DNA of 64,000 bases from Parietichytrium sp. I65-24A (Eukaryota; Sar; Bigyra; Thraustochytrida; Thraustochytriidae). Below, piece by piece: positions 27,299 through 56,727 of the stretch. Where the stretch lies: the NCBI GenBank assembly GCA_012862575.1, contig BLSF01000003.1, positions 124,001-188,000 of the forward strand, read 5' to 3'. Both the position numbers and the translations under genes were made by a program. Below the pieces are notes generated by a model. That model was not told the DNA's origin, did no database searches, and saw nothing but the letters and a program-made list of their open reading frames with translations. Every line of letters begins with the position of its first letter. The first letter of the stretch is position 1.

Positions 27299-29343
<2,045 letters not shown>

Positions 29344-30390
29344 ATGGCCCTCGCGAGAAGGCGAGCGAGTGCGAGTGCGAGTGCGGTGTCCGCACTAGTT
29401 GACGGTTTCGGCCGCGCACACAATTACCTGCGGGTGTCGCTGACGGAGAGATGTAACTTGCGGTGCACGTACTGCATGCCGGAAGAAGGCGTGGCGCTGA
29501 AACCGCAAGAGGAGATGTTGTCGAACGAAGAGGTGGTGAGAGTGGCAAAGTGCTTTGTGGAGAACGGCGTGGATAAAGTGCGGCTCACGGGGGGCGAGCC
29601 GCTGATTAGAAGAGACATCGAAGGGCTTTGCAGAGATTTGAAAGGGCTGGGACTGCGAGATCTGGCGATTACGACGAATGGGATATTGTTGAAGCGCAAA
29701 TTGGACACGCTGGTTTCGGCAGGGGTGAATTTGATGAATATTAGCCTCGACACGCTTGTGCCTGCCAAATTCGAGCTGATTACGCGGAGAAGAGGTTTCG
29801 ATACTGTACTGGAGTCTATACATCGAGCGAGAGAGAACCCTGGGCTCGATCTAGTCAAGCTCAACTGCGTAGTGAAACGAGGCGTCAATGATGAGGAGAT
29901 AAACGATTTTGTGGCGATGACGGAGCACTTTCCAAATTTTGAGGTTCGATTTATTGAGTACATGCCTTTTGAAGGAAACAAGTGGAAGTCAAAGTCTATG
30001 CTGCCTTACTTTGAAATGGTGGATATTATTCGGAAAAAGTACCCCACGTTTGAGCGCACCAAAAACCTGGACGGTGCCAACACAGTGTCGAAATCATGGC
30101 AAGTGCCAGGTTTTGCTGGTCGGGTGGGGTTCATTTCCTCTATGAGCGATCATTTTTGTGGCACCTGCAACAGACTTCGCTTGACAGCAGACGGCAATCT
30201 CAAAGCCTGCTTGTTCGGAGAGGACGAGATATCGCTGCGAGATGCCCTCAGGCAAGGCGCTTCAGACGAAGACTTGGTTTCGCTCATGGCACAAGCTGTG
30301 AGCCGTAAACACGAGAAGCTTGGAGGTCACGACAATCCAGAGTCCATCGCAAACGGGAAGAACAGGGCCATGGTCCTTATTGGAGGCTGA
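29344..30390 (+). CDS. moaA: GTP 3',8-cyclase (MoaA/Cnx2/MOCS1A), radical SAM
   Basis: First step of molybdenum-cofactor synthesis: converts GTP to 3',8-cyclo-dihydro-GTP; in eukaryotes it is mitochondrial. The 348-residue model starts at the ATG at 29344. The radical-SAM cluster is CNLRCTYC (C37, C41, C44), then LTGGEPLIRRD, TTNGILL, the GVNLMNISLDTL region and FIEYMPFEGNKW. The C-terminal second 4Fe-4S site is present (FCGTCNRLRLTADGNLKACL). The protein ends MVLIGG, and the GG terminus is needed by the family. The first 25 residues are rich in Arg, Ala and Ser (MALARRRASASASAV), which fits a short mitochondrial presequence. The frame is open upstream to a TTG at 29281. No MoaC is fused or adjacent. 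Convergent with the SNARE gene. Confidence 0.95.
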   Translation: MALARRRASASASAVSALVDGFGRAHNYLRVSLTERCNLRCTYCMPEEGVALKPQEEMLSNEEVVRVAKCFVENGVDKVRLTGGEPLIRRDIEGLCRDLKGLGLRDLAITTNGILLKRKLDTLVSAGVNLMNISLDTLVPAKFELITRRRGFDTVLESIHRARENPGLDLVKLNCVVKRGVNDEEINDFVAMTEHFPNFEVRFIEYMPFEGNKWKSKSMLPYFEMVDIIRKKYPTFERTKNLDGANTVSKSWQVPGFAGRVGFISSMSDHFCGTCNRLRLTADGNLKACLFGEDEISLRDALRQGASDEDLVSLMAQAVSRKHEKLGGHDNPESIANGKNRAMVLIGG

Positions 30391-30636: not shown

Positions 30637-32640
30637 CTATTTTATCGCTTTTGTGATCTTTAGCATCCCAGCGTTACCGCGCTCTACAGCGCTGGACGTC
30701 CGCTCTAATTGTTCATTCTGTACATCGAGCTCATCGGCCATATGGCTCGCGATGCGCAGATTAGACTGCATTGTGCGCGCAGTTGCTTCGGAGATATCTT
30801 CAGGCCTTGACCTCTGGCGCTCTGCAAGAATCCTAGCTTGTCTCTCTTCCTCTCGGTCCCTCATTTTCATTCGTGCCTCGAATTCTTGCGCAAACCTAGC
30901 AGATTCTGCGGCTTGAGTCTTGGGTCCCCAGCTCATCATATTGCGCAAAGCACCACTTAAATAACCTGCCCGATTGATCCTCTCCGAATACGCAGCGATA
31001 TCGCCAACCGTGGAGGCGTTCTTTTCAGAGCTAACGATTTGCTCTCCTTGTTGAGTTACCCGTTGAAACGACTCGCTCATAATTCCATTCGTTTCGACGG
31101 TCGTTGAATAAATACTATGCCACAGCTCATCGCCTTCGTCAAGTGGCGCGCCCGCGTTGGAACGCGGGGCGCGCAACAAAAGTTCGTCGGTATGCGGTCT
31201 TTTGGCGTAGTTTGAGAGTTTGGCTGCAGGAGTGCCAACGAGCATGCGCACCCAAAGCCTCCTGCGAAAGACTGACCCGCGCTTCGGCTCAACGTACCAG
31301 TTCTCTGCATTTATGGCAGAGCCATATTCCCAGCCCCCCAGATCTGTGTCAGGCCGGTCAATCACTGGAGCCCACTTTGTCGAGGCCCATTCCCACTTGA
31401 CATTTTCCTTCATTTCGCGCTCGTGAATCTCGGCAACTTTGTCCTCAACCTCAGAGGAAATTCCTGATGCGCCATTTCGCGCAGCTGCCAGAATGACCAC
31501 ACGAGCTTCTATAGCACTCATGTTGCTTGCAGGGGATGCCCCCTGCAACTCATCACCAAACTCGTCCCGCCAAATGCTCTCTCCCCAATTCCTCTTCACG
31601 TATGACCAAGACTGCATTTCCCAGGCAGATACTTCCAGGTCATACTCCCCAGTCTGCTTTTTGCGAACTGCCAGCAACGCTTTTACTCGGCGCGTTTCGG
31701 CATTAATAGAGCGCTTCTTGACAGCTGCAACGCCCTTTCCAGCGACCGTGCCTACCAAGCCCCCAGCTGCCGCGCCTATGGCGATTCCAAGTGGCCCGCC
31801 CACTATGCCAATTAGCCCCCCGACCGCCGCCGTCCCAAACCCAGCTTTGGCCGCACCAGTGCCAGCCTGGCGCTTGCGATATGTACTGAGCTCCTGGACA
31901 CCATCGACAGCTTTAGCCAGTGAATCCTCGGTGTTCTCTTCAAGGCGGTCAAAGTCGTCTTGCTGCACTTCGATGAGGGCGCCGACTTCGCTGGCAATCT
32001 CGCGAACCATGGTGGCTGTTCTCGCCACGTTGCGCAACTCGGCGTGTTCCATCTCGCGCGACTGCTGCTCGTCGTACTCGCGTAGGACCAGCTGTGCCCT
32101 GCTCTCTCTGTCCCTGTGCATTTGCATCTGAACCTGCATCTGCGAAACGCGATCAACATCACTCGGCTCTGTATTCTCGCCGTCCATTCCATTTGCAACG
32201 CCGCCCCCCTTGCCACTTGCAAGCTGCCTCTGCCGTTGCCTTTCCTGGCTCTGCTGCATGGCCTGTTGCTTATGATGCGAAGCAGCCACCAACCGCCCAC
32301 GCTTGACCGCCGCAGCAAGCCTTTGCAGCACTGCTTTCACCTGCAGCTTCCGCTCGTAGTCGGCCCTGAGCTTCTTCGCGAATGGCGCATCTTTTGCATC
32401 TCGAAGCGCCTGGCCCAGCGCCGCATGAAACTTCTCGTCCGCGTCAGCTAACAGCCGCGCCGCGTTCTCGCCCGCTGCCACCAGCTCTGCTGCTTTGGAG
32501 TTGTGATTTGAACTCCCGTTGGTGCCACAACTTGTTCGGGAAGCGCGGCCCCCGCCGAGGCTCTCGAGAGCTGCGCTGGCACTCGTAGCTGACTGCGAAA
32601 GGCGCACGAGGTCCACCAGCTGTACGCGGAGGGACTCCAT
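30637..32640 (-). CDS. Three-SNARE (Qa, Qb, Qc) plus dysferlin-domain protein
   Basis: 667 residues from the first ATG at 32640 (the frame is open to a GTG at 32742). Residues 1-120 are helical, Habc-like. A Qa motif at about 199-256 aligns without gaps to syntaxin: HAELRNV, then ALIEVQQDDFDRLEEN with zero-layer Q226. A Gly/Ala-rich hydrophobic stretch (262-306, glycine-zipper-like) could be a membrane hairpin. Residues 335-467 look like a dysferlin module: SAWEMQSWSYV (N part), then WEWASTKW, GWEYG and RRRLWVRML (C part). Residues 505-566 fit a SNAP-25-type Qb helix (TQQGEQI, Q531), and 618-667 a Qc helix (MADELDVQNEQLER, Q641) ending the protein. Known Q-SNARE sets are split over two or three proteins; here all three seem to sit in one chain. 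I infer a membrane-fusion role needing only an R-SNARE partner. Qa, Qc and DysF-C are convincing; Qb and DysF-N less so. Confidence 0.82.
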   Translation of the reverse strand: MESLRVQLVDLVRLSQSATSASAALESLGGGRASRTSCGTNGSSNHNSKAAELVAAGENAARLLADADEKFHAALGQALRDAKDAPFAKKLRADYERKLQVKAVLQRLAAAVKRGRLVAASHHKQQAMQQSQERQRQRQLASGKGGGVANGMDGENTEPSDVDRVSQMQVQMQMHRDRESRAQLVLREYDEQQSREMEHAELRNVARTATMVREIASEVGALIEVQQDDFDRLEENTEDSLAKAVDGVQELSTYRKRQAGTGAAKAGFGTAAVGGLIGIVGGPLGIAIGAAAGGLVGTVAGKGVAAVKKRSINAETRRVKALLAVRKKQTGEYDLEVSAWEMQSWSYVKRNWGESIWRDEFGDELQGASPASNMSAIEARVVILAAARNGASGISSEVEDKVAEIHEREMKENVKWEWASTKWAPVIDRPDTDLGGWEYGSAINAENWYVEPKRGSVFRRRLWVRMLVGTPAAKLSNYAKRPHTDELLLRAPRSNAGAPLDEGDELWHSIYSTTVETNGIMSESFQRVTQQGEQIVSSEKNASTVGDIAAYSERINRAGYLSGALRNMMSWGPKTQAAESARFAQEFEARMKMRDREEERQARILAERQRSRPEDISEATARTMQSNLRIASHMADELDVQNEQLERTSSAVERGNAGMLKITKAIK

Positions 32641-35239: not shown

Positions 35240-37912
35240 TCAGTAAAAGTCTGCCCGTGAAGGCGGGTCCTGCCTTCCACGGCGAAATATTCTGGGAGGG
35301 TGCAGCACCAGAAACACAATTGTCGCAACAACGGCCCCTGCGACGGAGCCCCCGATAGCCGCAGACCTTGCCTCAGGATCCTTGATTCCAAAATTCTGCG
35401 CAATAGAATCTATGTAGCCAGACGATGTGTCGTTAATTGTGTGCACTTCTTGGTCCAGCTGCGGCGGCCAAGGGCTCAGCTCCAGTTCGTCCGGGGTACA
35501 CTGATAATTAGGCTCTTGCAGACACTTATTGAGACAGTCCTGTGACGTAAAGTCAACTTGGCCAATAGTCATTTCATCAATGGTCACGTTCGCACAGAGG
35601 AATTCGCGTGGCAAAACGATATGATCCGGAATATCCTGGATGCCGCCGCTCACAGAGGCGAGGATGCGCGCCCTCTCGGGTAGTGAGTCGAACTGCACAT
35701 CGTCTTCGCTGTTGAGTTCAAGCCTGTAGGTTGTTTTAACATGATGATCCCAAATAAAGGTGTCATGCATTCGCATGCTGAAGGCATTAAACGGGTTTCT
35801 GTTGATGACAGACACGAAAGTGCCTTGAATCTTTATTCGACCGTACGTGTCCACGGGCTCGTGCGATGAGGGAGAAGGGTATACTTGCAACGTGGTGTGC
35901 ACACCCGTAGTCACATAGCAACTTATTTTGCAAGGAGCGAAAAACTCCAAAATGCCATACTCGAAGAATACGGTCTCGGCCTGATGAAGCCCGCATTTCA
36001 GTTGGGCATTGCTTTGCACTCTGAAGATGGACGTCAGGGAGGACGATACGTTCCCTGCGCCACTAAATCTCATCGTGCCACCGCTCTTGACGACGATCTC
36101 GCCAGTTGTCACAGTAAGCATGTTGTGGAAGGTGGTCGCAGTCTCTCCGTCTTCAGAGTCCAGTTGCCGCCCAGCAGATCTAGGCACAATCTCAATCTTA
36201 GCACCATCATCTACTCGGACGTAACCGAAGTCACAATATGGTCCCACTGTGAGTACGGTGCCGTGCCCAGTCACTAACAACATTGCATTCTCCGCAAAAG
36301 CCCACACTTGATCTTCTCTTAGGCAAATGGTGCTTGAGGTGGATATGTACATAGCGATATTGTCTTCAAAATTCTGCTGAGAGGAAGCCCATGGTTTCGC
36401 AGGATTTGGTGTATAAACTTTCTTGTCGGGGAACTGGGTAGTGTTCGAGATGAAGAAATAGCCATCCTCTGTTTGGGTGTCATCATGAGTCACCTTGGGA
36501 GTCGGAGACGCGGTCGGCCCCCGTGTTGTCGGCGATGCGGTAGGTGAGCGGGTCTTTTCGCCAAGATTGTACCCGTTCTTTTGAGCGGTCGCGCAAGTGC
36601 CACAACAGTTGCTTGGGGAGGAGTGATAGTCCATGTCGTCATCGTTGATGGAATTACAAATCGAACGCGCGACTCCGAGGCGGGACTTTTCGTGGTCGAA
36701 GATCATGTCAAAACCAGCCATTGTGATAGCGCCGATCACAAATCGGCTACCCCCACTCAGCAAGCCGACACAGTACGCGTTTTGAGCCGAGAGGAACATG
36801 TATGACGAGCTCGGCACGCAGATACGAACGGTATCCCCTTTCGACTCTGCGTTTTCGAATTCAAACTCGATGCTTGGAAAAGTCTCCAACCACTTCTTCA
36901 TGTCAGACTTTCCGTAGCCATCGGGAGGCGCAAAGCAGCCCACTGAATCCCGCTTGTCCATGCTTAAGGCGGAGGGAGGGTTGTGGATACCCACGCAATT
37001 TCCAGGCTTTGCGCAGAAGGCGTTCAGACGCTCCTTGATGGCAGAGTGAATGGTGCGGGGGACATATGTAAAAGTGGTTCCGCTATCCACGATCGGGATG
37101 GGGATGTTGCCTCCAGAGACTTTTTCGCCCCCCACGTACATGTCCAGCACCTTAACATTGTAAAATTCTCTAAACTCCATCGGAAGCCACTGAGGGGGCT
37201 CGAGATGCCTCGTTTCGTCAAACCCACCGACACCGAGTACGCCGACGGTGTTGGAGAGACAAAGCGAAAACATGTCCTTCTCTAGCTTGTGATGCTCGCG
37301 CAAATCCGCCAGCAATGTTCCGGAGTTCCCCGACATGCCAATGATGCCGTCTGCTTCTTGCTTCTGAAACGCCGACGCGAAGGAGTTGCAGCATCCAAAC
37401 TTGTGCCTGACACCCTCCTTCTTCACGTCGCAATCGTCCCCGAGACACATTGCGTCCATCACAAAATTGCCCCGATTGCACGACCCCTCCGAGTAGCACT
37501 GCGTGTACGTCGATGACAGCAGCTCGGCTGCGGGTGACATGGAGGTATCGAAATGATGATGGTCCCCACAGTTGCATCCTTTGCATGGCACCGCGATCGT
37601 ATAGCTCCCCGTATCTACAATCACACTAAACACTTGCGCCGGGTCCCCAATTTTCAGATCCGACCAATACACTCCATCAGGCTCGCGCTTTATCTCCGTA
37701 AGCTCTTTGAACCCTGCATTCTCCAGCATCCGCGACCGCTCTGCGTCGTGTCTTCGTCGCAGAGGGATCTCCAGAAATCCTTTCTCCAACTTTCGCCTTT
37801 GCGCCGACCCACCTTCCTCTCTGCTATCTACCATTCCCGCAGCCTGCTCTCCGCTGACCGCCATCGCCAACACCGCCGCAGCGGAGAGCGCCACGCACGT
37901 GCGGACCCGCAT
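35240..37912 (-). CDS. Membrane-anchored pepsin-like aspartyl protease with large ectodomain
   Basis: 890 residues from the ATG at 37912. Residues 1-22 are a signal peptide (MRVRTCVALSAAAVLAMAVS). The A1 peptidase domain has both catalytic motifs: DTGS at D100 and DSGT at D276, with Cys pairs between (CKGCNCGD, CNSFAS). After the protease a Ser/Pro/Thr hinge (SPTASPTTRGPTASPTP, near 480-500) leads to about 350 residues rich in short beta-like repeats (TVLTVG, VRVDDGAKIEIVP, GEIVVKSGGTMRFSGAG, GRIKIQGTFVSV), resembling a right-handed beta-helix. A single membrane helix near 849-870 (AGAVVATIVFLVL) is followed by a short basic cytosolic tail. I infer a cell-surface or endomembrane protease, type I topology. 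The domain after the hinge is inferred from repeat texture only. Confidence 0.88.
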   Translation of the reverse strand: MRVRTCVALSAAAVLAMAVSGEQAAGMVDSREEGGSAQRRKLEKGFLEIPLRRRHDAERSRMLENAGFKELTEIKREPDGVYWSDLKIGDPAQVFSVIVDTGSYTIAVPCKGCNCGDHHHFDTSMSPAAELLSSTYTQCYSEGSCNRGNFVMDAMCLGDDCDVKKEGVRHKFGCCNSFASAFQKQEADGIIGMSGNSGTLLADLREHHKLEKDMFSLCLSNTVGVLGVGGFDETRHLEPPQWLPMEFREFYNVKVLDMYVGGEKVSGGNIPIPIVDSGTTFTYVPRTIHSAIKERLNAFCAKPGNCVGIHNPPSALSMDKRDSVGCFAPPDGYGKSDMKKWLETFPSIEFEFENAESKGDTVRICVPSSSYMFLSAQNAYCVGLLSGGSRFVIGAITMAGFDMIFDHEKSRLGVARSICNSINDDDMDYHSSPSNCCGTCATAQKNGYNLGEKTRSPTASPTTRGPTASPTPKVTHDDTQTEDGYFFISNTTQFPDKKVYTPNPAKPWASSQQNFEDNIAMYISTSSTICLREDQVWAFAENAMLLVTGHGTVLTVGPYCDFGYVRVDDGAKIEIVPRSAGRQLDSEDGETATTFHNMLTVTTGEIVVKSGGTMRFSGAGNVSSSLTSIFRVQSNAQLKCGLHQAETVFFEYGILEFFAPCKISCYVTTGVHTTLQVYPSPSSHEPVDTYGRIKIQGTFVSVINRNPFNAFSMRMHDTFIWDHHVKTTYRLELNSEDDVQFDSLPERARILASVSGGIQDIPDHIVLPREFLCANVTIDEMTIGQVDFTSQDCLNKCLQEPNYQCTPDELELSPWPPQLDQEVHTINDTSSGYIDSIAQNFGIKDPEARSAAIGGSVAGAVVATIVFLVLHPPRIFRRGRQDPPSRADFY

Positions 37913-38578
37913 CACTGAGTGACTGAGTGAGTACCTTTTCGACCGTTTCTGAATTCTACAAAGCAAACCAAACGCCTGTGCGCAGGGATGCCTTCTGTCA
38001 GTCGCACCGAGGCCCTACGCCTGCGGTTAATTACACGCCTAGCAGTCACCTGCCTCTTTTGATGTTCGCTGTCGCGCACACTCACTCTCACTCCCACTAT
38101 CTCTCTCTCTCTCTCTCACTCACTCTTCGCGTTCACTCACTCACTCACTCACAAATGGCTTTGCCCTTTCACTCACCGACACATTCACTCACTCCCTTCG
38201 CTAGAGGCCAGCGTAGTCTGGACGTAAGAGTGCGAAGGGATCGAGCGTGTGGCAGATATGGCTACCGTATTTGGTAGATGTGTCTCGTGGGGATGGGTGG
38301 GGATGCTAGAGTTTAAAGGAGGCCGTTGCAGTAAGAATCGGGTTGGAAAGGTGATATGAAAGCTCTAGTTATAGGGAGAAGCTCTGTCAGACTAGCCAGC
38401 AGCGGTCACTGTTAGCCGGCATCTGCAATGATATGATTGCAAGTGAGAGAATAGAAGCAAGTGTGAATTTGTAAAGATTTTTTGTGAAAAAGGTGAGTAG
38501 GGTGTGAGATACGCAAGAAGAATTTTTGAGTAGCGGCGAGAAAAAAAAAACTGAATATCAACAACGGGTCAGCACAGC
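37913..38578. repeat. Intergenic between protease and H15-SWIB genes
   Basis: The left part is the protease promoter or leader, with CT and CTCA tracts at about 38100-38152. The right part should hold the H15-SWIB 3'UTR. No gene is seen. Confidence 0.55.
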
Positions 38579-50056: not shown

Positions 50057-51819
50057 CCCCCCAGTGCTGCTCATCGTTGTCGTCGCCAGCATTTCCCGCC
50101 AAACCCGTCTCACCCACCCGCTTCTCCCAGCGCAGTGTCTCTCGGCACTCCGCTCTTCCGTTCGCCGTTCGCCGTTCCTGCCTCTTGCAGACCAAAACGG
50201 GATATCAGCAGAGCTCCAAGCGCGACCCTAACCTGACACCGACCTGGCCGGCCTGTCTCAGGACCTTGAAATCAGAACCCCGACAAGCTAAAGCTAAACG
50301 CTGCAAGTCAGTTGCTTCACTGTTTGACTGTTTGTTTGTTTGTTTGTTTGTTTGATTGCATTGCAGATGTTGCATCCAACCCTTCTCCTTGCACAGAGGC
50401 AACGTAGCCGCTACCGACTCGAGTACTGTGCCAGTACCGATAAGCTCGTTCACCATGCTTCACGCTGCAGTAACCGGCACCGTAGAGACTGCGGGCGACC
50501 GTGGATGCTAGCGTTGCGGCTGGTTGCAGAGGAGCAGGGGCCAGTTGTTCGTGCTGTTCTTTTGTACTATGGTAGTATGCGACGGTCACCTCCCGCACAT
50601 GTGACACATGTGACGCACCTTTTCCACCCTGATACCATCGTCGCACATCTTTGCCAACGAGGCCAACGAGGTCGGCGAAGGGGTTGTCTTGTCGAGGTGG
50701 AGCAGATTGACAACCGTCTCGAACATGGCCAACTTGACCTTGGATTTTCCTTTTCCCTTTTCCCTTTTGCCTTTTGCTTGCTTGCTGCTTTTTGCTACTT
50801 GCCCATGGGCGCTATGGGCGCTATGGGCACCGTGTGTGGTTGGTTGGCTGGCTAGCGATGCACTACGTCTCCGCTGCAGTAAACCTGGCAAAGCAAACCT
50901 GCTCGATGACGTCGCTGCTGTCCGCCTGCTGCGGTTGCAATCGACACGATCACGATGTTGACTGACCGATTGACCGATTGCTGATTGACTGTGACTGACT
51001 GACTGACAGGGAGGAAAACTCGAAGGTCTGTCTGTCAAAGGCCGTCGCGCAAATGGACTCGCTGTACCCGGTGCACATCGCCAGCATGGTGAAGAGATGG
51101 TCTGGTACTTGTACGCGCGTGTCTCTCACGCAAAATTGCGAGAGCGGTACTGGCACTCGTGTGTTCTCAGAGACTTTTCTTTCCGTTCGTGTTCAGGTTT
51201 GTGAAACGAACGCATCTCACTTGCTCGCACATTGCGCCTGACTGTGAATCTGACAGCAAAGAAGAAATGGAGGGAGACAAGAGAAGTTTCTCTTACCGGT
51301 GGGTACTCGAGTACCGGGTATCTGATAAGTGTAGCAGAACAGGCAGAACGAAACAAATTGAAAAAAGTGCAGTGCAGTGTACGTACCGATACGTGTACAC
51401 CCGCAGCAGGCACCATCGATGCAGTAAATTACCGGTACCCACAGTCAGTACTGTGCACGCAAATACTCTGCTCTGCAAGCCCAGTGAGGTCTAATTTGTA
51501 GGCGATGTGGTGTGCTGCCCGTCGCATCCCGTCGCTTTCGCTCTCATGATGTCGCCGTGGCGGCAGTCAACTGAGCACTGGATGAATTAGCGCAAGTTCT
51601 GACAGTGATTTTTTTTAATAGTGAAATTCTGAATTCCGGTTTTGCACGTTCCTGGCTTTTGGGACCCTTAGTCCACTTGCCAAGACGCGGTAGTGCAAGA
51701 GTGCGCCTCGATGAGAAAGAGGGTTCTGGCGGTGCACTTGGCAAGCCTGTGGAAGAACGGTATCGGAGGGGAGACTGGCGTGACGGGCACGTTGGCGGAA
51801 ACAGCTGCGAAAGTTCGTG
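50057..51819. other. 1.8 kb intergenic with possible unassigned exons
   Basis: Lies between pyruvate kinase (-) and the first SNF1 kinase (+). A TTTG tract at 50333-50356 ends in an acceptor-like TTGCAG. A short run with coding-like codon use follows an acceptor-like GACTGACAG at about 51008 (EENSKVCLSKAVAQMDSLYP). On the minus strand, segments near 50690 and 50400 also look protein-like. I could not assemble any of these into a gene. Confidence 0.35.
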
Positions 51820-53583
51820 ATGTCGTCTCCTTCGCGGACGAGGAGCAAGATGCGAATGCGGATTGGAAAGTATTTGCTGGGGAGGACACTGGGTATTGGT
51901 GCGTTTGGCAAGGTAAAACTTGCAGAACATGAGCTCACTGGTCAGCTGGTGGCCATCAAGGTCTTCAACAAAGCAAGAGTTCGCGCGCAAAACATGGAAG
52001 AAAAGGTTCACAGAGAAATTCAGATTCTGAAGATGTTTGTGCATCCTCACGTTGTTCGTCTGTACGAGGTGATCGAAACGCCTACAGATATTTTTCTTGT
52101 CATGGAGTATGTACCCGGGGGTGACTTGTTCGATTTCATCGTGTCCAGGCAGCGTCTATGCGTTGATGAAGCCAGGCATATTTTCCAACAAATCGTCTCG
52201 GGGGTGGCCTACTGTCACAGCCTTGATGTTGTGCACAGAGATCTTAAGCCTGAGAACGTGCTCTTCGGCACGGACCGCAATATTAAAGTGGCTGACTTTG
52301 GTCTCTCAAACGTTTTGCGGGACGGCGAGTTCCTTCGCACAAATTGCGGGTCTCCGAACTACGCCGCCCCCGAGGTTGTGTCCGCAAACCTGTACGCTGG
52401 GCCAGAAGTCGACGTCTGGAGTTGCGGGGTGATTCTCTATGCGCTTCTTTGCAACTTTCTCCCGTTTGACGAAGACTCCATGCCTGCTCTCTTTCGTAAA
52501 ATCAGAAGCGGACAATACACCCTCCCTTCTTTTCTGGACGACGCTAGCCGAGATCTGATCGTGCGCATGCTGGTCGTGGACCCGACCCAACGAATCAAAT
52601 TTGAGGAGGTTCGAAATCACCCTTTCTTCCTCAAAGCGTTACCAACCTATTTGGCCCTTCCGATTACGCAGCAGACGATCGCATCGAGTGTTGGAGATGA
52701 CATTGAGGAGGCTTGTGTGAAGGATATCCTATGCTTGAATCATCCTTTCATCAAAAACAATGGAAGACTCGGAGTTCTTGCGGCGATACGCTCCGAGCGC
52801 CAGACGTTCATCAAGGTCATCTACCACCAATACCTCGATAAAAGGAAGGCTGAACTACAGGTCGCCAAACAATGCGCGCCAGCAAAGCAACTGGTCTTTG
52901 AGAACCGGGAAGAAGGACAGCACAATCCATTTTCACCTGTTCTGTGTGCTCCAAGCTCTGCCCCTGCTTCCGAATTCCGCTCTGGAATTATGCCTTCCTA
53001 TTTGGACTCGCCCTCACTCACATCTCCATCGCAAGCAAAGGGTTCTCAGCAAAAGTCTTTCTCTGCCGGAGCAAGCACCACCCGGCCGAGTATAAACTCG
53101 GACTTTTGGCACGCGCGCTCTGGGCCCCGCTTACCAACAAAAAATTCAAGAAAGGATTCTTTAGAACACCGAGCGCGGCCAGCAAACCGTATGAGAAAAT
53201 GGTTCGTGGGGATTCAGTCGAGAAAAGACTCCGAAGTGGTCATGGGAGAAGTGTTTCGGGCTCTCAAAACCTTACGTTCACAGTGGTATTTTGCGCCAAG
53301 CAATCCTTATCGCGTGACCTTAAGGTGGCGGCCGTCATGTGTTGCGCCAATTGATGATGATATTCCCGACAAATGGGTGTACATGGCACTGCAACTCTAC
53401 AAAGTCCAAGATTCCATTTATCTGCTCGACTTTCAGCGAGTCGGAGGGTTGAGCGACTCGTTTTCATTCATGCGCCTGAGCTCTCTACTAATCAGTGCAC
53501 TTAAAGCTACGTCCAAAGCAGCTAACACATCAGCCGGGATTCTTGCGGCTGTGCAAAAGCAGAAGCCTCCACATCCCCGGTGA
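51820..53583 (+). CDS. SNF1: SNF1/AMPK alpha-type protein kinase, paralogue 1
   Basis: Catalytic subunit of the SNF1/AMPK energy-sensing kinase, 587 residues from the ATG at 51820. Kinase domain: GIGAFGKV loop (25-32), K47, catalytic D141 in HRDLKPEN, DFG D159, and activation-loop FLRTNCGSPNYAAPEV with phospho-site T174. Animal and plant AMPK alpha read RTSC here, so the residue after T is N instead of S. A UBA/AID-like helical region follows (about 290-350, VKDILCLNHPFIK). The Ser/Pro-rich linker is poorly conserved. The C-terminal alpha-CTD, which binds beta and gamma subunits, is clear: WFVGIQSRKDSEVVMGEVF, RALKTLRSQW and LQLYKVQDSIYLLDFQRVGG. A second, better conserved copy follows 1.3 kb downstream on the same strand. 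Confidence 0.93.
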   Translation: MSSPSRTRSKMRMRIGKYLLGRTLGIGAFGKVKLAEHELTGQLVAIKVFNKARVRAQNMEEKVHREIQILKMFVHPHVVRLYEVIETPTDIFLVMEYVPGGDLFDFIVSRQRLCVDEARHIFQQIVSGVAYCHSLDVVHRDLKPENVLFGTDRNIKVADFGLSNVLRDGEFLRTNCGSPNYAAPEVVSANLYAGPEVDVWSCGVILYALLCNFLPFDEDSMPALFRKIRSGQYTLPSFLDDASRDLIVRMLVVDPTQRIKFEEVRNHPFFLKALPTYLALPITQQTIASSVGDDIEEACVKDILCLNHPFIKNNGRLGVLAAIRSERQTFIKVIYHQYLDKRKAELQVAKQCAPAKQLVFENREEGQHNPFSPVLCAPSSAPASEFRSGIMPSYLDSPSLTSPSQAKGSQQKSFSAGASTTRPSINSDFWHARSGPRLPTKNSRKDSLEHRARPANRMRKWFVGIQSRKDSEVVMGEVFRALKTLRSQWYFAPSNPYRVTLRWRPSCVAPIDDDIPDKWVYMALQLYKVQDSIYLLDFQRVGGLSDSFSFMRLSSLLISALKATSKAANTSAGILAAVQKQKPPHPR

Positions 53584-54867
53584 CCGATGAGCCAAGCGCC
53601 TCGAAGTTCATTAACTTGTCTTGATTGAAAACTAACTACCTGGAACCCAGTTGGGAAGCACATTAAACCTCGAAACTTGAATCCCGTACACGCGCACATC
53701 CAATTCTTTTCGACATATAGCGCTACACAACTTGCACAACTTCACAATCAAAGCAATTTGTTTCTCATCGGCGGCTTTCAAGTTGAACTCTTGTGCGTTC
53801 ACGCTTGCTTAATGCTCGAGTAGTGGTGCTACCCTTTCACTACCCCTTTTGTTCTATCTATAAACAAAAAGCAGGTTGGCTAGCTAACTAGTAACAGACT
53901 ATAGCGGCATTTACATAGCCTTAAGTAGTACTGTACTCAGTACACTGTTGAATAGTGTCTGATGCCCATCTGAAATGAGGTCTATCATAAGCACTCTTAC
54001 CTTAAGATCTCTTATCTGATATTACCTGAAGGTGGGCGTACCAGCTGCTAGGCTCTTGATAGGAGTTCGCAGTTTGATTAGTATCTTGACCACGTCCAGT
54101 CCTTAGCTGCCCGCGCTAGTGTCCACAGCTGTATTCTACCTTCACCGTAGCAATCCGCCATAGAAGTAACGCAAGTACTACACGCCTTCCTGCCTCACAG
54201 CACTACGGTTACCTCTATGCGCCTCCTACCGGCAGGGAAATTCCGTCTTGGGTCAGAACGCGCTCGCCCAAGTACGTCGCAGGGAGAAAGAAGAAGGAAG
54301 AAGGAAGAAGGAAGAAGTTTCCCGTCGGAAAGAGGAAGGGGGTAATTCGCCGACAAGTGTCCGCGCGAGCAGTACTCGGCCATAGTCGCTTCTCTCTCGG
54401 AGAGAAAGGCGAGTGGGGGGCAGGGGGCACGGGGCACGGGGGTTTGCTGCTGCACGGCGGAATTCGACCGCGGATCGGACCCTCGCGAAAACGCCGAGCC
54501 CTCGCGTGGGAGGGAAGAAGGGAGGAGAAGTGAGAAGAGAGAAGAGAGAGAGAAGAAGAAGGGAAGAGTTATTTTGCCGAGAGCGCGAGCGGCGCGGCGG
54601 CGTCTCCAAAGTTGTCATAGCAGAGTTGTACGAGATCGGTGAATTGCATAAGAAAGGTGTCTTTCACGTGTTGGTGATAATTATTGGCTTATATATATAT
54701 ATATATATATATCGGAGGCCGCGGAAAGTATATTATATATATATATATATATCGGAGGCCGCGAAGAGGCCAGAAGTCTGGCCATTTTGTCATCGTCGGA
54801 GCAGATTGTGTATTGTGTCTAGTCCAGGTGGTAAAGGAGCTTGTGTCGGTGCGGTTTTGTCGTCAAG
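53584..54867. repeat. Intergenic between the two SNF1 paralogues, with TA repeats
   Basis: TAGT/CTAG-rich sequence at 53870-54060 has no gene. GAAGAAGGAA tracts lie at 54290-54320 and GAGA tracts at 54525-54570. Two copies of a unit made of a TA run followed by TCGGAGGCCGCG sit at about 54690-54764 (CGGAGGCCGCG at 54713 and 54753), inside the second kinase's promoter or leader. Confidence 0.6.
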
Positions 54868-56727
54868 ATGTCCGCGCCGGCGACGAGGAGCAGCAGCACG
54901 AGCAGCGGTGGCTCGAGGTCAAGGAGCGGGAGGCCATCGAATGTGAGTAGCAGAATGCGCGTTCAGATCGGGGAGTATTTGCTTGGGAAAACGCTGGGGA
55001 TCGGCTCGTTCGGTAAGGTGAAATTGGCGGAACATGTAATTACTGGCCAACTTGTGGCCATCAAGGTGCTAAACAAGGCGAAGATCCGCACGCTAGATAT
55101 GGAGGAGAAAGTGCGCCGGGAGATTCAAATTCTCAAGATGTTCGTTCATCCGCATATTATTCGGCTGTACGAGGTGATCGAAACCCCCACAGATATTTTC
55201 CTGGTCATGGAGTACGTCTCCGGCGGCGAGCTTTTCGACTACATCGTCTCCAAAGAACGTTTGCATATTGACGAGGCAAGACAGTTTTTTCAGCAAATTG
55301 TGTCCGGGGTGGCGTACTGCCACAGCCTTAATGTTGTCCACAGAGATCTCAAGCCCGAGAACTTGCTTGTGAGCGCAGACAATAACGTCAAAGTAGCTGA
55401 CTTTGGCCTTTCAAACATTATGTACGATGGTGAATTTCTCCGCACAAGCTGCGGATCTCCAAACTATGCAGCTCCAGAGGTAATATCGGGAAATCTGTAC
55501 GCTGGACCGGAAGTGGACATATGGAGTTGTGGTGTTATTCTGTATGCTCTTCTCTGTGGCTCCCTTCCCTTCGACGACGAATCCATTCCCAGGCTTTTTC
55601 GCAAGATCCGAAATGGGCACTACATACTCCCCTCTTTTTTAGACGAGGCTAGCCGAGACCTGATTCCGCGCATGTTGGTCGTAGATCCGACTCAGCGGAT
55701 AAAGTTTGAGGAAATACGAAATCACCCGTTCTTCGTCAAAGGGCTGCCACCGTACTTGGCGCTTCCCGTATTGCAGCAGACGATCGCAATTAGCGATGGA
55801 GACGAAATCAATGAGGAGTGTGTGAATGAGATTCTTCGGTTGAATCACCCCTTTATCAAGAAGAACGGAAAGAAAGGCGTTATTGCGGCGATTCAGTCCA
55901 AGCGCAAGACGTTCATTCAGGTTATTTATAATCTATATTTGGATCAAATGCAGACTCGGATTCGTGTCGCCGAGCAGCGAGCCTCAGCGAACAAGAGACT
56001 TGTGGAAGAGGCGGGGCTGCACACAATTGCTTTCTCCCCTCCGAATGCTCCAAAGTCTGCTCCTTCAGGCGCAAACTACATTGATCCCGTGAAACGATGG
56101 GCTGAAAATCTTCCAGCGAGTCCGCGGTCTTCTAGATATGCACCTTCCTCGGTTCCTGGAAACGCTCAGCAAAAGGCATCATCCGTAGGGACAAGCTCGG
56201 GGCGAGCTGGTAAAGATGGCGAGGTGCCACAAGGGGGTCCAGGCTCGAGCGCGTCGGGGTCATCTGTGGGACAGAATTCCGCGCGGCATCGATCGCGTGC
56301 CTCAAGTCGCATGCGAAAGTGGTACTTGGGTATTCAGTCCAAGAAGGATCCTGAACTGGTGATGAGCGAAGTGTTTCGAGCTCTCAAATCCCTGCGGTCT
56401 CAGTGGCACTACGCACCTAGCAATCCCTACCGGGTGACCTGTAGGTGGCGCCCCTCTTGCCTTGCCGTGATCGATGAGAATGTCCCCGACGAGTGGGTGT
56501 ACGTCTCGCTGCAGCTCTACAAAGTCCAGAACTCCATATACCTGCTTGATTTCCAGCGAGTCGGAGGGATTAGTGGTTGTTTCTCATTCATGCGTTTGTG
56601 CTCTCTTATCATTAACGCGCTCAAAGCCCCTTCTGGAGCGCCACAAACTCCAGGCGCGAGTACCCCAGCAGGAGCGCTCGCGACGCTGCAGCAACAACAA
56701 CAACAGCAACAACAGCAATCTCGATAG
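54868..56727 (+). CDS. SNF1: SNF1/AMPK alpha-type protein kinase, paralogue 2
   Basis: 619 residues from the ATG at 54868 (the frame is open to a TTG at 54841). Same architecture as paralogue 1: glycine loop GIGSFGKV (44-51), K66, HRD D160, DFG D178 and activation T193 in FLRTSCGSPNYAAPEV, identical to the AMPK alpha/SnRK1 consensus. UBA/AID-like helices and the alpha-CTD (WYLGIQSKKDPELVMSEVF, LQLYKVQNSIYLLDFQRVGG) are intact. A Ser/Ala-rich N-terminal leader (30 residues) and a C-terminal run of Gln are extra. The consensus activation loop suggests this is the conventional SNF1 alpha. Tandem position and similarity over the full length point to local duplication. Beta and gamma subunits are not in this window. 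Confidence 0.95.
   Translation: MSAPATRSSSTSSGGSRSRSGRPSNVSSRMRVQIGEYLLGKTLGIGSFGKVKLAEHVITGQLVAIKVLNKAKIRTLDMEEKVRREIQILKMFVHPHIIRLYEVIETPTDIFLVMEYVSGGELFDYIVSKERLHIDEARQFFQQIVSGVAYCHSLNVVHRDLKPENLLVSADNNVKVADFGLSNIMYDGEFLRTSCGSPNYAAPEVISGNLYAGPEVDIWSCGVILYALLCGSLPFDDESIPRLFRKIRNGHYILPSFLDEASRDLIPRMLVVDPTQRIKFEEIRNHPFFVKGLPPYLALPVLQQTIAISDGDEINEECVNEILRLNHPFIKKNGKKGVIAAIQSKRKTFIQVIYNLYLDQMQTRIRVAEQRASANKRLVEEAGLHTIAFSPPNAPKSAPSGANYIDPVKRWAENLPASPRSSRYAPSSVPGNAQQKASSVGTSSGRAGKDGEVPQGGPGSSASGSSVGQNSARHRSRASSRMRKWYLGIQSKKDPELVMSEVFRALKSLRSQWHYAPSNPYRVTCRWRPSCLAVIDENVPDEWVYVSLQLYKVQNSIYLLDFQRVGGISGCFSFMRLCSLIINALKAPSGAPQTPGASTPAGALATLQQQQQQQQQQSR

Follow-up and report, generated by a model that had tools for sequence, protein, structure and literature searches.

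A labyrinthulomycete protein with Qa, Qc and putative Qb SNARE motifs around a DysF domain: a candidate natural single-chain t-SNARE

Can one natural polypeptide supply the whole acceptor side of a SNARE complex? The Qa, Qb and Qc helices normally come from two or three separate proteins, and SNARE complexes consist of two to four proteins. The question is raised by one gene in a stretch of 64,000 nucleotides of the thraustochytrid Parietichytrium sp. I65-24A (contig BLSF01000003.1, positions 124,001 to 188,000; hereafter the window), in which an earlier, sequence-only reading had noticed three Q-SNARE motifs and a DysF domain on a single chain. Our comparisons suggest, with a probability of about one half (0.52), that its product is a natural single-chain t-SNARE, known so far from labyrinthulomycete-type sequences. 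The best reading of its parts is that a Qa SNARE with a glycine-rich hairpin would be fused, via the DysF domain, to a SNAP-25-like half, with only the R-SNARE wanting. The presence of Qa and Qc motifs on one natural chain is by itself already unusual. The parts of the gene are the following.

30637..32640, reverse strand: whole coding sequence, 667 amino acids plus stop, in a single uninterrupted frame
32266..32640, reverse strand: N-terminal region, probably helical (residues 1-125)
31873..32046, reverse strand: Qa SNARE motif (residues 199-256; codon of the zero-layer Q226 at 31963-31965)
31720..31857, reverse strand: glycine-rich hydrophobic stretch of 46 residues, a presumed hairpin (residues 262-307)
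31651..31719, reverse strand: basic conserved stretch behind the hairpin (residues 308-330)
31231..31650, reverse strand: DysF domain (residues 331-470; stack W416, W418, W423, W437, R459, R465)
30958..31131, reverse strand: second SNARE-like motif, putative Qb (residues 504-561; codon of the zero-layer Q531 at 31048-31050)
30802..30915, reverse strand: charged variable linker, SNAP-25-linker-like by position (residues 576-613)
30640..30801, reverse strand: Qc SNARE motif at the extreme C-terminus (residues 614-667; codon of the zero-layer Q641 at 30718-30720)

Sequence comparison confirmed that the motif around Q226 groups with syntaxins and that around Q641 with SNAP-25 types, as the sequence-only reading had proposed. 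We ran class hidden Markov models (HMMs) for Qa, Qb, Qc and R on eight proteins, the gene product and the seven relatives that make up all eight-sequence comparisons given here, and on 2000 locally shuffled copies. The Qa model scored 13.1-21.1 bits at the Q226 site in all eight (best of the 2000 shuffles, 11.3), and the Qc model 7.2-20.0 bits at the Q641 site, also in all eight, where the best shuffle reached 7.2, a value exceeded by seven proteins and equalled by one. When family profiles were compared with class panels, the Qa segment matched the Qa panel at 96.4%, without gaps and in register, other classes reaching at most 9.3%; the Qc segment matched the Qc panel at 94.6%, Qb coming next with 43.9%. 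Q641 lies 26-29 residues from the C-terminus in every sequence, and the C-terminal layers of its motif are regular. The window has 189 stop-to-stop frames of at least 100 amino acids, and of these the present frame alone has a score for Qa (E=1.5e-5; next 0.63) or for Qc (E=6.2e-5; next 7).

Known structures point the same way, weakly so for Qa. The family profile of each segment was compared with 177,635 sequences of the PDB, with rows taken to E=10; these rows repeat few proteins and are not independent. SNAREs filled 14 of the 16 rows of the Qa profile, the other two being farnesyl pyrophosphate synthetase (0.046) and a viral spike fragment (6.8), and the clean Syntaxin-1A rows had E=0.10-0.64. 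SNAP-25 filled 19 of the 21 rows of the Qc profile; the top value (E=0.0013) sums two stretches, and chains that hold the Qc helix alone gave E of about 0.012-0.017. The profile of the whole length returned 13 rows, among them dysferlin (0.001), Vam3 (0.054), SNAP-25 (0.83) and Syntaxin-1A (0.86); its SNARE matches fall at the expected places but are weak, with unrelated proteins at similar values.

A scan that was not anchored at any glutamine, in which 102 overlapping 58-residue windows of the family alignment met five SNARE profiles, gave three peaks. They coincide with the three motifs, with the zero layers in register, and reach 44 for Qa, 20.7-21.5 at Q531 and 35-37 for Qc. The highest score elsewhere was 13.3 (N-terminal region, Qb profile), "background" maxima of 27-28 belonging to the sides of the Qa and Qc peaks. 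When columns were shuffled (100 controls per motif, five profiles), scores reached at most 21.4 for the Qa columns, 16.9 for the Q531 columns and 19.0 for the Qc columns. The mean hydropathy of the fifteen non-zero layers was likewise best in the canonical register, out of seven, for all motifs (Qa 2.30, Q531 1.15, Qc 2.03), although within the N-terminal half of Qc the canonical value (1.40) is close to that of a shift by -3 (1.39).

The long frame is not an accident of assembly or annotation, because its relatives have these parts in the same order. At least seven such relatives, of 640-718 amino acids, were obtained from about 5.8 billion proteins; the runs with the whole protein and with the alignment scored the 8000 candidates sharing most words and the run with the DysF region 450, a scope in which distant relatives may be missed. 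The DysF-region search gave one further family member and, among the candidates scored, it and the alignment search returned the same family only. The relatives are 42-47% identical to the gene product (alignment of seven), and local alignments span 87-100% of the query. The securely named one comes from Mucochytrium quahogii, a labyrinthulomycete, and occurs in the MMETSP and EukProt sources as well. The red algal origin assumed by the sequence-only reading is therefore dropped. The others are P0007 (MMETSP, labelled complete), metagenome proteins, and a record assigned to the dinoflagellate Durusdinium trenchii on a 3.3-kb contig, which we suspect to be a contaminant. One sequence, P0008, starts without a methionine and is probably 5'-incomplete. 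Two relatives from transcriptome sources hold the single frame. In the 42.5-Mb genome itself the protein has a single match (E<=0.001).

Conservation within the family follows the proposed parts. The zero-layer glutamines Q226, Q531 and Q641 are invariant in all eight sequences. By mean pairwise identity the three motifs (Qa 58%, the Q531 segment 55%, Qc 50%) stand out against the linkers, at 18-24% (24% for the charged one), and the N-terminus has 26-37%. This N-terminal region scored 16.2 against a panel of Habc domains, 60 shuffles having a mean of 10.3 and a maximum of 16.7. Conservation peaks in the hairpin (73%) and in the basic stretch that follows (74%); a short stretch following the Q531 segment has 61%, and the DysF domain 53-54% in its halves and 38% in its middle.

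The claim of a single-chain t-SNARE depends on the middle motif, where a third SNARE-like helix is probable. The segment is conserved as strongly as Qa and Qc, and Q531-G-x-Q is invariant in all eight sequences. Its scan score exceeds that of its own shuffles, yet is level with the top control of the Qa columns; for a score of 23.5, reached when the panel includes STX17, there is no matching shuffled control. Three of its six PDB rows are SNAREs, two of these being the same molecule, and the top row is 5buz, a SNAP receptor-like protein matched in one stretch with the glutamine aligned (E=0.0039), which we take to be Vam3, a Qa. The hydropathy of its N-terminal half is close to that of SNAP-25-type Qb motifs (1.25 vs 1.14). 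In profile-profile comparison the segment matched Qa at 57.7% (35.9% without STX17), SNAP-25-type Qb at 24.9%, all Qb at 9.9% and R at 2.3%, in alignments that are in register but extend no further than the N-terminal half plus the first layers beyond zero. The motif of Q531 can thus be placed in either Qa or SNAP-25-type Qb, and we call it a putative Qb. What had been read as a likely Qb motif is SNARE-like as a family profile, and the evidence for its class is weaker than that reading stated.

The spacing of this motif is near that in SNAP-25. Q531 and Q641 are 106-115 residues apart in the eight sequences, as compared with 121 in SNAP-25. These linker lengths, compatible with a fold-back as in SNAP-25, and the single frame of the transcriptome-derived relatives are in favour of the proposed one-chain t-SNARE. 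Like the Qbc proteins of the SNAP-25 and SNAP-29 type, the C-terminal half has a Qb-like motif, a linker and a C-terminal SNAP-25-like Qc. Unlike them, it is fused to a preceding Qa protein that has a membrane hairpin itself, and its Qb element is weak and irregular.

How would such a chain be held in the membrane? The sequence-only reading had recognised a membrane-like glycine zipper, which hydropathy windows beginning at residues 266-286 bear out, and had placed the tether in the DysF domain. The anchor is most likely, instead, the glycine-rich stretch just after the Qa motif, which at 46 residues is long enough for a hairpin. A hairpin would be required, because a single pass would keep the DysF domain and the two C-terminal motifs from the Qa motif. 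This anatomy recalls syntaxin 17, in which the Qa motif also leads directly into a glycine-zipper-like hydrophobic hairpin and which likewise lacks Phe at layer -3; the chain studied here differs by running on past the hairpin into the DysF domain and two further motifs. The targeting of syntaxin 17 to autophagosomes is attributed to glycine zipper-like motifs of its membrane domain (PMC10968809).

The likeness has some support in searches. A query of the human STX17 motif with its hairpin, in an approximate sequence, placed our locus first among the three matches listed in the genome (E=0.0027; 26% over positions 24-125 of 144 amino acids), the next match being an ordinary syntaxin (E=0.011). 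With the hairpin included, STX17 was also the top of the tested Qa sequences, at 27.6 bits against 22.3 for the best of 300 hairpin shuffles, in a comparison where only seven targets had any membrane part. The hairpin alone scored no better against STX17 than shuffles did. Orthology with STX17 was rejected: the motif alone gives STX17 8.0 bits, as compared with 21.1 for STX16 and 21.2 for L004, a Qa-type SNARE of this genome. We thus regard the likeness as one of anatomy and leave common descent as a possibility.

The DysF domain itself is confirmed as the sequence-only reading had it. In the PDB its profile finds dysferlin at E=0.00012 and TECPR1 at E=0.018, and its N-terminal half is recognisable by eye too. 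In TECPR1 a stack of tryptophans and arginines is formed by W116, W118, W122, W138, R159, R161, R165 and R167 (PMC10476172). By alignment, six of these eight positions are invariant in all eight sequences, that of R161 is R or K and that of R167 is Leu. Sphingomyelin binding of the TECPR1 type was considered and rejected: in our mapping the position of the exposed Trp154, which such binding requires, is Arg454 in all eight. The DysF domains of Pex30 and dysferlin bind phosphatidic acid (PMC12101078). The domain is more likely a lipid-binding module than the tether. It resembles those of dysferlin, TECPR1 and Pex30 in its Trp/Arg stack and overall pattern, and unlike them it stands outside a ferlin, beta-propeller or Pex30 context. 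We know of no earlier SNARE with a built-in DysF module.

How far, then, does the claim hold that the whole t-SNARE side lies on one chain? The three invariant zero-layer glutamines, the order Qa-Qb-Qc and the lack of a convincing R-SNARE segment in the protein, where the R model stays at noise, are in its favour; the irregularity of the Qb element in its C-terminal layers weighs against it, as do several other results. From layer -7 to +8 this element reads W/L, I, T/S/A/N, T, M/I/L, S/T, V/A, Q, I/V, S/A/T, A, V, A/T, S/A/T, N/D/H/E, G/S/A, of which the last four (+5 to +8) are the irregular ones. The hydropathy of its C-terminal half is 1.06, as against 2.78 in SNAP-25-type Qb, and is higher (1.10) when shifted by +3. 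The sequence-only reading had named noise-level scores for Qb or Qc as evidence against itself, and in single sequences the Qb HMM is indeed at noise at Q531 (at most 0.1 bits in five of the eight, not listed in three), its best match being the Qc site in seven of the eight proteins. At Q531 the R profile, too, rises slightly (to 14.1, as against 12.1 or less in other windows), a value that its shuffles exceed (16.3). The Qa motif has weak points as well. Its PDB E-values are weak, and the top Syntaxin1 row (E=0.011) sums two stretches, which alone give 3.7 and 5.8 and one of which falls outside the SNARE motif. Layer -3 is Ala in all eight sequences, a position held by Phe in 16 of the 17 Qa proteins of the panel, STX17 being the one without. 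Pfam SNARE gives E=0.24 here and at best 0.037, in four of the seven members, so that no curated cut-off is reached; when the genome was searched with Pfam SNARE, 14 matches were listed (3 above the cut-off), without this locus. Finally, the SNARE panels consist mostly of motifs of known SNAREs, with SNAREs from this genome added, anchored by hand at the zero layer.

The weakness of the Qb element in its C-terminal half keeps two rivals alive. The protein might contribute Qa and Qc helices only, with the Q531 segment a diverged or non-SNARE helix and a separate Qb protein completing the bundle. This would fit the clear Qa and Qc and unclear Qb assignments of both HMM and profile-profile comparisons, the irregularity beyond layer +4, the lack of a preferred register in the C-terminal half, and the ordinary Qb-type SNAREs of the genome (5 of the 10 listed V-SNARE_C matches are above the cut-off). 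It fits poorly with a Q531-G-x-Q that never varies, in a segment conserved like Qa and Qc, SNARE-like above its own shuffles and best matched in the PDB by a SNARE with the glutamine aligned, and we consider it unlikely. Alternatively, the protein might bind R-SNAREs while the irregular C-terminal Qb layers block full zippering, and thereby cap, tether or proofread. The polar and small side chains of Qb layers +7 and +8, the Ala at Qa layer -3 and a DysF domain that could provide an additional membrane contact are compatible with such a brake. But the C-terminal layers of Qc are regular, the Qa motif continues straight into the hairpin as in fusogenic syntaxins, and no sign of inhibition is seen in the sequence, which makes this reading improbable.

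A more radical view would discard the SNARE assignment altogether and see a DysF-hairpin protein of membrane contacts or membrane shaping, whose generic coiled coils merely resemble SNAREs. Conservation is, after all, highest in the hairpin and the basic stretch that follows it, and the hairpin weakly matches other glycine-zipper families (C19orf12 with E=0.0017 in five of seven members, DUF1269 in all seven); the Pfam SNARE scores are weak, and a membrane domain next to a DysF domain recalls Pex30 (PMC12101078). Class-specific, in-register matches of Qa and Qc that surpass controls, along with invariant zero-layer glutamines, are unexpected of generic coiled coils, and we hold this view to be very improbable.

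If the protein is a single-chain t-SNARE, it might work as follows. The hairpin would dip into the membrane and back, leaving the DysF domain and both C-terminal motifs in the cytosol alongside the Qa motif. The Qa, Qb and Qc helices would wind together, the linker between Qb and Qc folding back as in SNAP-25. To this acceptor the partner membrane would contribute one R-SNARE, and zippering would run toward the membrane, while the DysF domain, by binding lipid (phosphatidic acid, by analogy with Pex30 and dysferlin), could position or gate the acceptor. The hairpin Qa with a SNAP-25-like half resembles the pair of syntaxin 17 and SNAP29, which acts in autophagosome-lysosome fusion; therefore, an endolysosomal role is our first guess. 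Tentatively, and with somewhat more doubt than assurance, we propose a self-contained acceptor in which hairpin Qa, DysF lipid sensor and SNAP-29-like Qbc share one gene and lipid sensing is coupled to zippering, probably in an autophagic or endolysosomal pathway.

Linkage in this order appears workable, because an engineered chain of syntaxin, SNAP-25 and synaptobrevin (L-SNARE) assembles and is disassembled by NSF in repeated rounds (PMC6130971). The protein studied here shares with L-SNARE several Q-SNARE helices per chain, syntaxin first and SNAP-25 after it; it differs in being natural, L-SNARE being man-made and including the R-SNARE. The PDB entries 9y5f, 9y5g and 9y5h, compared by chain name only, hold engineered chains named rv-SNARE/sc-t and sc-t-SNARE. 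We found no natural one-chain t-SNARE among the titles and abstract openings listed from open-licence full text, a body that mostly lacks subscription papers and preprints and leaves absence unproven. A free t-SNARE acceptor mis-assembles, and its formation before the arrival of the R-SNARE is hard to study. If confirmed, a natural one-chain acceptor would fix order and stoichiometry and reveal which constraints evolution keeps once the helices stand on one chain. A further hint would be that the functions of hairpin Qa, Qbc and DysF belong to one pathway.

The remaining SNAREs of the genome were surveyed as well. Apart from the Qb-type proteins mentioned above, it has four Qa-type frames (L002, L003, L004, L006) and two Qc-type frames (L005, L012), with classes assigned from translations, and 7 of the 10 listed synaptobrevin (R-SNARE) matches are above the cut-off. 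A separate SNAP-25-type Qbc was not found with part of Arabidopsis SNAP33 as the query (three matches listed, none convincing; the best of them, at E=0.06, overlaps L005, the ordinary Qc locus); this query is insensitive, since short motifs are poorly found, and it also missed the gene of the window. Another SNARE motif fused to membrane-targeting modules occurs in this genome at L022 (G000:C24:401250-401399, reverse strand). Its 789-aa frame, of which 561 aa were read, has ankyrin repeats, a FYVE zinc finger, a C-terminal R-SNARE motif above the synaptobrevin cut-off (E=3e-7) and a short tail. Proteins with two SNARE motifs are reported as absent from Leishmania (PMC1626469).

The neighbourhood of the gene in the window is mixed. 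A frame of the MoaA/MOCS1-type radical SAM family (29281-30390, forward strand; Radical_SAM E=1.9e-31) and the SNARE gene converge tail to tail, with 246 bases between them. At 35240-37966 on the reverse strand, a frame of 908 amino acids encodes a pepsin-type aspartyl protease (Asp E=4.3e-30 at residues 100-434); its long C-terminal half matches nothing in Pfam and, as judged by eye, has a hydrophobic segment close to the end. Two adjacent, near-alike protein kinase frames on the forward strand (51817-53583 and 54841-56727), presumably of the AMPK/SNF1 type, look by eye like a tandem duplication.

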